From: Aquitalea aquatilis | Lineage (GTDB): Bacteria; Pseudomonadota; Gammaproteobacteria; Burkholderiales; Chromobacteriaceae | Reading direction: 5' to 3' | DNA length: 64,000 nt | NCBI RefSeq assembly: GCF_005155025.1 | Contig: NZ_CP039731.1 | Span: 2,976,001-3,040,000, forward strand | Part shown: in pieces, positions 45,824 through 47,962 of the stretch | Layout of the letters: each line of letters begins with the position of its first letter | Numbering within the stretch: position 1 is the first letter of the stretch | Translations under genes and position numbers: made by a program | Notes under the pieces: generated by a model | Databases searched by the model: none | Told to the model about the DNA's origin: nothing | What the model saw: only the letters and a program-made list of their open reading frames with translations

Positions 45824-47224
45824 TCAACATTCCACTACGTTGACCGGTACTTCGATCACATTGATGGCCAGCCCGCCACGGGCGGTTTCCTTGTATTTGG
45901 TGCTCATGTCGCGGCCGGTGTCGCGCATGGTCTTGATGACGCGGTCCAGCGATACGCAGTGCTGGCCATCGCCGCGCAGCGCCATGCGGGCAGCGTTGAT
46001 GGCCTTGATCGAGGCCATGGCATTGCGTTCGATGCAGGGGACTTGCACCAGGCCGCCGACCGGGTCGCAGGTCAGGCCCAGGTTGTGCTCCATGCCGATT
46101 TCTGCTGCGTTTTCCACCTGTTCCGGCGTACCGCCCATGACTTCAGCCAGTGCACCGGCGGCCATGGAGCAGGCCGAGCCCACTTCGCCTTGGCAACCTA
46201 CTTCCGCCCCGGAAATCGAGGCATTCAGCTTGAACAGGATGCCGATGGCACCGGCGGTCAGCAGGTAGCGCACGATGCCGTCTTCACTGGCACCCGGTAC
46301 AAAGCGCGAATAGTAGTGCATGACTGCCGGGATGATGCCGGCGGCACCGTTGGTGGGGGCGGTGACGACGCGGCCACCGGCGGCATTTTCCTCGTTCACG
46401 GCCAGCGCATACAGATTGACCCAGTCCATTACGGTGAGCGGGTCGCGCAGCGCGGCTTCCGGTGCAGCCAGCAGCTTTTGGTACATATCGGCGGCACGGC
46501 GTTTTACCTTCATGCCGCCAGGCAGAATGCCTTCGCGCTGACAGCCACGTTTGACGCAGGCCTGCATCACCCCCCAGATGGTCAGCAGGTCGCGGCGTAC
46601 TTCTTCCTCGCTGCGCCAGGCCAGTTCGTTTTCCAGCATGATCTGGCTGATGCTTTTGCCTTGCGCCTTGCACAGGGCCAGCAGTTCGGCGGCGGTATTG
46701 AACGGGTGTTTGAGTTCGGTGACGCCGGGCGGTGCAAAGCCGGCTTCGATGGCGGCTTCATCCACGACGAAACCACCCCCCACCGAGTAATAGGCGCGTT
46801 TGGACAGGCTATTGCCGGCGGCGTCGTAGGCTTCGAAGATCATGCCGTTGGGGTGGTAGGGCAGGGTTTTGCGCTTGTGCAGGATCAGGTCTTCGGCCTC
46901 GTTAAAGGCGATATCCTGCTGGCCCAGCAAGTTCAGCCGCTTGCTGCTGCGGATTGCCGTGAGCAGGTCTGGCACGGCATCGGTATCGACCAGGTCGGGC
47001 AGTTCGCCGGCCAGGCCCAGCAGCACGGCGGTATCCGAGCCGTGGCCCTTGCCGGTGGCACCCAGCGAGCCATACATCTCGCTACGCACGCGGCAGGTGG
47101 CGGCCAGCAGGCCGTCTTTTTCCAGCCGTGCGACAAACTGGCGGGCGGCGCGCATGGGGCCGACGGTGTGCGAGCTGGATGGGCCGATGCCAATCTTGAA
47201 CAGGTCGAAAACGCTGATAGCCAT
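45824..47224 (-). CDS. sdaA: L-serine ammonia-lyase
   Basis: A 466-residue single-chain L-serine dehydratase converting serine to pyruvate and ammonia with a [4Fe-4S] cluster. The beta domain opens with [20 protein letters not shown]; the alpha domain carries the cluster-ligand segments [11 protein letters not shown] and GLTCDPVGG and ends at the conserved C-terminal Cys. Its transcript has a ~700-nt leader with a tandem glycine riboswitch, so serine breakdown is tied to glycine level. Confidence 0.96.
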
Positions 47225-47544
47225 ATTGCTCTCTTGTCTGCTGCAGGCAGGCCGTTTGGCGGCGCTGCCGGTGTTTCGGGTGCGGGCCGCTCGCTAAAGG
47301 ATGGCCCGTTGATGTGTGTGTCAGCCTGTCATGTTTTGTGCGCGTGGACTGTTCTGCTTCCGGCCATCAGGCGTCGTGAAGCGTCCGGTCCGCTGCTTGT
47401 CCGCGGCGGGATAGGCCGTGGTGCGGGGCTGCTCATGGTGGCTGGCGCAGGGATGACAGGCTGGAGGGGCGGCAGGAGGGCAGGCTCCATCGCTCGCAAA
47501 CCGGGCAGGCCGACGCATGCTGACATGAATGCAGTCACTGCCCC
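47225..47544 (-). other. sdaA leader between riboswitch and start codon
   Basis: About 320 bp between the second aptamer's 3' half and sdaA. It is rich in short G/C inverted repeats and would hold the expression platform. No terminator hairpin with a T run was identified. Confidence 0.55.
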
Positions 47545-47587
47545 CTCTGTCCTTTTGCCTGAGAGATTGCGACAGCGTGGGCTGTCT
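47545..47587 (-). ncRNA. Glycine riboswitch aptamer 2, 3' half
   Basis: Read on the minus strand this contains one complete P3 hairpin copy (GACAGC-CCAC-GCTGTC) followed by CAATCTCTCAGGCAAAAGG and ACAGAG, the conserved 3' end of a glycine aptamer. It is separated from the matching 5' half (47761-47828) by the insert. Confidence 0.85.
47570..47587. repeat. 18-bp direct repeat at the insert edge, copy 1
   Basis: The sequence CGACAGCGTGGGCTGTCT is repeated exactly at 47761-47778, 191 bp away. It corresponds to the P3 hairpin of the riboswitch. Confidence 0.95.
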
Positions 47588-47760
47588 CGGGCTGCTGACA
47601 AAGTAATTTGATAGGATTGCACAGGACCCGGCAAAGCCGGGCCTTCCGGCTCACTGATTGATTCCGCAGCCTTCCTATCTATTCCCAATCCCCCCGCCCT
47701 TGCCCTGCAAGGGAGCCTCGCTTTCTTTTCAGAAAGCGAGAGGGGTTTGTCAACAATCTT
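47588..47760. mobile_element. Structured ~173-bp insert splitting glycine aptamer 2
   Basis: The segment lies between two identical 18-bp copies of the P3 hairpin sequence (47570-47587 and 47761-47778). It contains three perfect hairpins: CCCGGC/GCCGGG (47627-47641), CCCTTGC/GCAAGGG (47697-47713), CTCGCTTTC/GAAAGCGAG (47717-47740). There is no coding capacity. It looks like a small palindromic mobile unit, which is inference. Confidence 0.65.
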
Positions 47761-47778
47761 CGACAGCGTGGGCTGTCT
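47761..47778. repeat. 18-bp direct repeat at the insert edge, copy 2
   Basis: Exact second copy of the 18-mer at 47570-47587. Confidence 0.95.
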
Positions 47779-47828
47779 TTTCCTTCGGCGAGGCCGGGCG
47801 TGGTGGCCCGGTCCTTCTCTCCAGAGAG
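47761..47828 (-). ncRNA. Glycine riboswitch aptamer 2, 5' half
   Basis: On the minus strand: CTCTCTGGAGAG, a P2 hairpin (CCGGGC/GCCCGG), CGCCGAAGGAAAA and a P3 hairpin. Joined to 47545-47587 without the insert and one repeat copy, it makes a canonical glycine aptamer. Confidence 0.85.
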
Positions 47829-47838
47829 CCAGACGACG

Positions 47839-47912
47839 GCGCGGTTCTTTTGCCTGAGAGTTTCTGGGGCGATACCCCTTCGGCGTCACCGCAAAGGTGA
47901 TCTCTCCCGCGC
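47839..47912 (-). ncRNA. Glycine riboswitch aptamer 1 (intact)
   Basis: On the minus strand: P1 GCGCGG..CCGCGC, GGGAGAGATCACC, the CGCCGAAGGGG core, and AAACTCTCAGGCAAAAG, all matching the glycine riboswitch consensus. It is the first aptamer of the tandem pair that controls sdaA. Confidence 0.95.
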
Positions 47913-47933
47913 CATCCAGTACGGCTGGCTGGC

Positions 47934-47962
47934 ACTGTAGATAAGCTGCCCAAGCCTGTCAA
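47934..47962 (-). promoter_or_regulatory. Sigma-70 promoter of the riboswitch-sdaA transcript
   Basis: On the minus strand, a perfect TTGACA (complement of 47957-47962), a 17-bp spacer and TACAGT (complement of 47934-47939) lie about 22 bp before aptamer 1. Confidence 0.8.

Follow-up and report, generated by a model that had tools for sequence, protein, structure and literature searches.

The leader of an L-serine deaminase gene in Aquitalea aquatilis raises the question of how one aptamer of a tandem glycine riboswitch came to be cut in two, and whether it outlived the event. The locus lies within a 64,000-nucleotide stretch of contig NZ_CP039731.1, which was analysed as a whole and is called the window here. 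We take the downstream gene to be sdaA, a name that comes from the first-pass annotation and from knowledge of the family, and it has one-to-one matches (92-98% identity) in eight other genomes of the genus. The parts of the leader are listed in Table 1; its σ70-like promoter is also seen in the sister leaders.

Table 1. Features of the sdaA leader, in window coordinates.
Feature	Position	Strand	Basis
sdaA, encoding L-serine deaminase (466 aa), 3' of the riboswitch	45824..47224	-	ORF
Leader promoter, sigma-70-like, TTGACA-17-TACAGT	47934..47962	-	consensus scan: 1 found vs 0.2 expected
Glycine riboswitch aptamer 1, intact	47832..47919	-	RF00504, 63.2 bits
Aptamer 2, 5' half: P1 5' strand, P2, P3 5' strand	47779..47830	-	covariance half-match
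P3 hairpin, first copy, AGACAGCCCACGCTGTCG (target-site duplication)	47761..47778	-	exact direct repeat
Insert, a 173-bp MITE copy	47588..47760	-	related copies in own genome and other genomes
Left terminal inverted repeat, AAGATTGTTGACAAA (family consensus CAGATTATTGACAAA)	47746..47760	-	pattern search, alignment
Right terminal inverted repeat, CGGGCTGCTGACAAA (family consensus CAGGCTGCTGACAAA)	47588..47602	+	pattern search, alignment
P3 hairpin, second copy, AGACAGCCCACGCTGTCG (target-site duplication)	47570..47587	-	exact direct repeat
Aptamer 2, 3' half: P3 3' strand, conserved CUCUCAGGCAAAAGGACAGAG, P1 3' strand	47541..47569	-	covariance half-match

The first-pass annotation had described a tandem glycine riboswitch with an intact first aptamer and a second one split in P3 by 173 bp between exact 18-bp copies of a hairpin, and this description holds. 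Aptamer 1 gives a full-length match to RF00504, well above the gathering score of 32. Aptamer 2 lies in two pieces, 47830-47761 and 47587-47541 on the minus strand, and the hairpin copies at their inner edges are 100% identical. No Rfam glycine match covers 47541-47830 at an E-value limit of 5, and RF00504 does not recognise aptamer 2 as a single match. We also built a covariance model from five sister species in which aptamer 2 is uninterrupted. These sisters, its own training set, score 86-120 bits, whereas the window yields no single gap-free match across the split but two half-matches only, one of 27.4 bits at 47688-47830 and one of 25.8 bits at 47541-47628. P1, P2, and the P3 core are nevertheless present across the two halves: in all four insert-bearing species the P1 and P3 pairs are standard throughout, and P2 has one mismatch, in two of the four. 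The tandem model RF03166 matches both aptamers of the uninterrupted sister leaders at 63-67 bits, which is below its gathering score of 110. Unlike the aptamers described by RF00504 and RF03166, aptamer 2 here has 191 bp added within P3, namely the 173-bp transposon and the second copy of the hairpin, and matches neither model in one piece.

Nine genomes of the genus contain sdaA. The insert is present in the window and in G002, G006, and G007, and absent from five, G001, G003, G004, G005, and G009, whose leaders contain a compact aptamer 2. Since the same insert occupies the same position in three other species and is missing from five, the split of aptamer 2 is real and not due to chance. 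The interrupted sequence is thus not found in all relatives. Once the insert is removed, the aptamer has a canonical fold, as the first-pass annotation had proposed. The insertion is not a recent one, since between the four insert-bearing species 14-25% of the fourfold sites in sdaA differ. (Near sdaA in G009, the sRNA family ar35 also gave a sub-threshold match, at L057, 1301-1430 on the plus strand, with 33.9 bits where the gathering score is 45.) None of the genomes examined contains the exact P3 sequence from before the insertion, which was reconstructed from the repeat. The P3 hairpin, with 6 pairs and a 4-nt loop, is a small example among the duplicated target hairpins described below; on the opposite strand it scores as terminator-like, which would fit its use as a target.

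What the first-pass annotation missed is the identity of the insert, a hairpin-targeting, hairpin-duplicating MITE with IS1182-type ends. A DNA search with the insert retrieved about 19 copies, 77-92% identical, from its own genome, and matches in 20 of the 61 genomes searched, spread over eight genera across the bacterial family; family copies are also present in Pseudogulbenkiania. The copies are about 165-185 bp long, start with CAGATTATTGACAAA, end with TTTGTCAGCAGCCTG, have imperfect 15-bp inverted repeats, and encode no transposase. The family is thus a MITE, being short, multicopy, and bounded by terminal inverted repeats, without a transposase of its own. DUF559 endonuclease genes were considered as a parent element and rejected, as their ends are not those of the MITE. 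In other genera, DUF559 genes (L088-L091) adjoin palindromic repeats of the CCCTCTCCC/GGGAGAGGG type on one or both sides, possibly another sort of endonuclease-linked dispersed repeat.

The insert is strongly structured (z = -4.5) and its family has a conserved core in the alignment, as might be expected if it were a recruited functional RNA domain, such as a second sensor or a regulated terminator, and not a tolerated passenger. Yet the same element sits at dozens of unrelated hairpins, and the rate at which the leader copy varies is close to that of fourfold sites. RNAalifold finds 27 pairs in the element, only 2 of them with double changes, so that covariation support is almost nil, and there is no Rfam match; a functional RNA inside the element was rejected on these grounds, and recruitment is very unlikely. 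At 40 other loci struck by the same MITE, no other known RNA was found.

The hairpin repeats are the most telling property of the family. For 49 of 79 MITE copies, flanking direct repeats reach at least the 99th percentile of a control in which left and right flanks of MITE copies were paired at random (median score 15 versus 6). In the 46 strongest cases the MITE lies between duplicated whole hairpins whose sequence varies from site to site while the left copy matches the right. These repeats are 16-37 bp long and their limits are those of the palindrome itself, with a median of 0 bases left unpaired at each side; in 83% of the 46 the stem has 7 pairs or more, compared with 4% of background windows. 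About 30 of the 79 copies are without a convincing hairpin duplication; these are explained as old, truncated, or rearranged copies, or ones whose ends are imprecisely placed. Slippage could also yield two identical hairpin copies at a single locus, and the repeats might instead belong to the element. Neither origin is compatible with hairpins that differ between sites and agree from left to right in 46 of 79 copies, nor with the same pattern around IS1182 elements of unrelated hosts (below), and both are hardly credible. At the 46 loci (L029-L046, L109-L165), the two hairpin copies differ mainly in the loop (30 of 180 loop positions versus 9 of 778 stem positions, P about 1e-15), a bias that could reflect selection, templated correction of quasi-palindromes, or a step of transposition.

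Target duplications of bacterial MITEs in general are short sequences of fixed length. The duplication described here differs in being a whole hairpin of variable length, 16-37 bp. In other respects the family resembles bacterial MITEs as one review presents them: short, non-autonomous, intergenic elements with terminal inverted repeats and many copies (PMC10969869).

Autonomous elements with the same target behaviour were found elsewhere. In G033, two pattern matches led to an element of 1.72 kb whose ends, CAGGCTGTTGATAAAGCCC, are perfect over 19 bp and whose 461-aa transposase scores above the threshold of the NCBI IS1182 model NF033551 (434.9 bits versus 270). This IS adjoins MITE copies and itself has a different hairpin on each side. 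At locus L209 (G033:C42:48800-49900, 440-700), a MITE copy and an IS1182-type end have a long terminator-like hairpin in common, and a duplicate of this hairpin lies on the far side of the MITE, i.e., one target was reused. Plasmid IS1182 elements from Klebsiella pneumoniae, K. oxytoca, Rhizobium, Sphingobium, and Salinivibrio, with ends CAGACTGCTGACAAA, are each flanked by an exact whole-hairpin duplication of 16-23 bp. An element of Bacillus pumilus with a more distant end, CAGGCTGTCGAGAAAA, has an exact whole-hairpin duplication of 28 bp. In a Salmonella copy the end is the same and the hairpin repeat imperfect; the result for a Providencia copy was unclear. Whole-hairpin target-site duplication is thus common to the MITE and to autonomous IS1182 elements, and the ends match as well (CAGATTATTGACAAACCCC / CAGGCTGCTGACAAA for the MITE, CAGACTGCTGACAAACCCC and CAGGCTGTTGATAAAGCCC for the IS1182 elements). 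Given the near-identical ends and the exact hairpin duplications, the MITE most likely belongs to a stem-loop-duplicating subgroup of IS1182.

No transposase gene with MITE-like ends was found in the genus, and in the bacterial family the only such IS is in one genome; a search of G000, G001, and G004 found no full-length partner with the MITE ends. Because the genus yielded no matching transposase, the IS1182 assignment rests on shared ends and target behaviour. The IS1182 elements that are present in the A. aquatilis genome and in nearby genera have ends AGGCTGTGTGAAAAC or similar and appear to belong to another subgroup; several of them are flanked by inverted rather than direct repeats. 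In this second subgroup (L217, L219, L226, L233; ends CAGGCTGTGTAAAAACG or similar) it is as if the element lay in the loop of a palindrome or had replaced one. Possibly, each subgroup attacks a different foot of the hairpin.

Structure-directed insertion has been described for IS1272 and TnSha1 of the IS1182 family, which insert at inverted repeats and terminator hairpins without a sequence consensus; the hairpin is reportedly replaced or deleted, without target duplication (PMC5678879, PMC4923244). The MITE family is like them in targeting hairpins by structure, and unlike them in that the whole hairpin is duplicated, remaining on both sides of the insert, and in that the element mainly concerned is a MITE. 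The published transposition model does allow for a stem-loop duplicated at both ends, as a model branch only (Fig 13, branch 6b; PMC5678879), and the MITE family behaves as this branch describes.

What such an insertion does to the RNA was examined with Vienna energies only, which ignore tertiary contacts and cotranscriptional folding. Because the hairpin is duplicated and the ends of the element are inverted repeats, the RNA would be able to pair across the insert. The minimum-energy folds of all four species keep P1, P2, and the P3 core, with the element at the P3 tip. Pairing is predicted between the outer arms of the hairpin copies (5' arm of copy 1 with 3' arm of copy 2), between the inner arms, and, inside them, between the ends of the element. 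The result would be a stacked, interrupted extension of P3 of about 23 pairs, 12 from the hairpin copies and 11 from the element ends. In the energy model, pairing across the insert has a probability of 0.83-1.0 and the local hairpins at most 0.01, a prediction in line with the first-pass suggestion that the P3 arms could pair over the insert as a giant P3 arm. The base of P3 pairs with a probability of 0.97-0.99 with the native insert, which equals or exceeds the 0.78-0.98 of the uninterrupted sisters; when the body of the element is shuffled, this value drops to 0.08-0.47 on average. At one inner pair across the insert the window has C-G, G006 and G007 have U-G, and G002 has U-A; in G002 the local two-hairpin alternative is broken. 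As one event at a single pair among four sequences, this covariation is only suggestive.

Variable columns were counted along the leader in the four insert-bearing species. Aptamer 1 has no variable columns (0/83). Aptamer 2 has 4/52 in its 5' half, all within the P2 hairpin, and 0/30 in its 3' half; the insert with the hairpin copies has 55/218 (25%) and the downstream leader 22/122. For the aptamer 2 halves outside P2, taken by eye as 62 columns, the contrast of 0 variable columns with 55/218 in the insert gives P = 3e-7 in a Fisher test that treats columns as independent. Invariant halves beside a drifting insert speak for selection having maintained aptamer 2. The adjoining downstream leader is likewise conserved in these species over its first 60 nt, and some of the constraint may therefore act on more than the aptamer. 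This stretch (47481-47540, minus strand), about 60 nt directly after aptamer 2, is near-identical in the four species and different in the five species without the insert; possibly, it is a clade-specific expression platform.

One could suppose instead that the insertion killed aptamer 2 and that the leader works through aptamer 1 alone, the two halves being decaying relics. Single glycine aptamers can work alone, and aptamer 2 escapes Rfam detection in all four species with the insert. Decay is difficult to reconcile with halves that lack a single variable column outside P2 while a quarter of the columns in the insert vary, and with a predicted fold kept in all four species, and we consider it rather unlikely. 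The first-pass annotation had left the choice between a modified and an inactivated riboswitch; the first of these terms stands, and the second is not supported, given the conservation of the aptamer halves in four diverged species. Judged from sequence comparison and predicted folds, the riboswitch is modified and probably still functional.

Taken together, these observations support the following reading, to which we assign a probability of about 0.82. A non-autonomous MITE with IS1182-type ends would have entered the terminal P3 hairpin of aptamer 2 in the sdaA tandem glycine riboswitch of an ancestor of the four Aquitalea species. An IS1182-type transposase would choose hairpins for their structure (cruciform or terminator-like palindromes), whatever their sequence; the element would be joined to the hairpin at its two 5' feet, after which repair would leave a whole hairpin on each side. 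With the stacked extension in place, P1, P2, and the conserved P3 core would still form, and the riboswitch would have been kept under purifying selection. The transposase step, the fold in vivo, and the continued response to glycine are the parts of this reading that we infer.

The literature searched, which leaves out most subscription journals, contains nothing relevant on a transposon within a glycine riboswitch, and this absence is weak evidence of novelty. Tentatively, and with the odds somewhat against it, hairpin-targeting, hairpin-duplicating transposons may be a general route by which structured RNAs acquire large helical extensions and keep their function, with sdaA as a first natural riboswitch case: because the target is a stem, the hairpin is duplicated, and the ends of the element are inverted, the insertion would be self-accommodating in the RNA. 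If the reading of the sdaA leader is right, the locus is a natural experiment in which an aptamer tolerates a 191-nt transposon insertion in a peripheral stem and stays under selection, and the tolerance would be explained by a transposon that picks hairpins and extends them. It would also add comparative evidence, drawn from both Pseudomonadota and Bacillota, in favour of the branch of the IS1182/IS1272 transposition model in which the stem-loop is duplicated.
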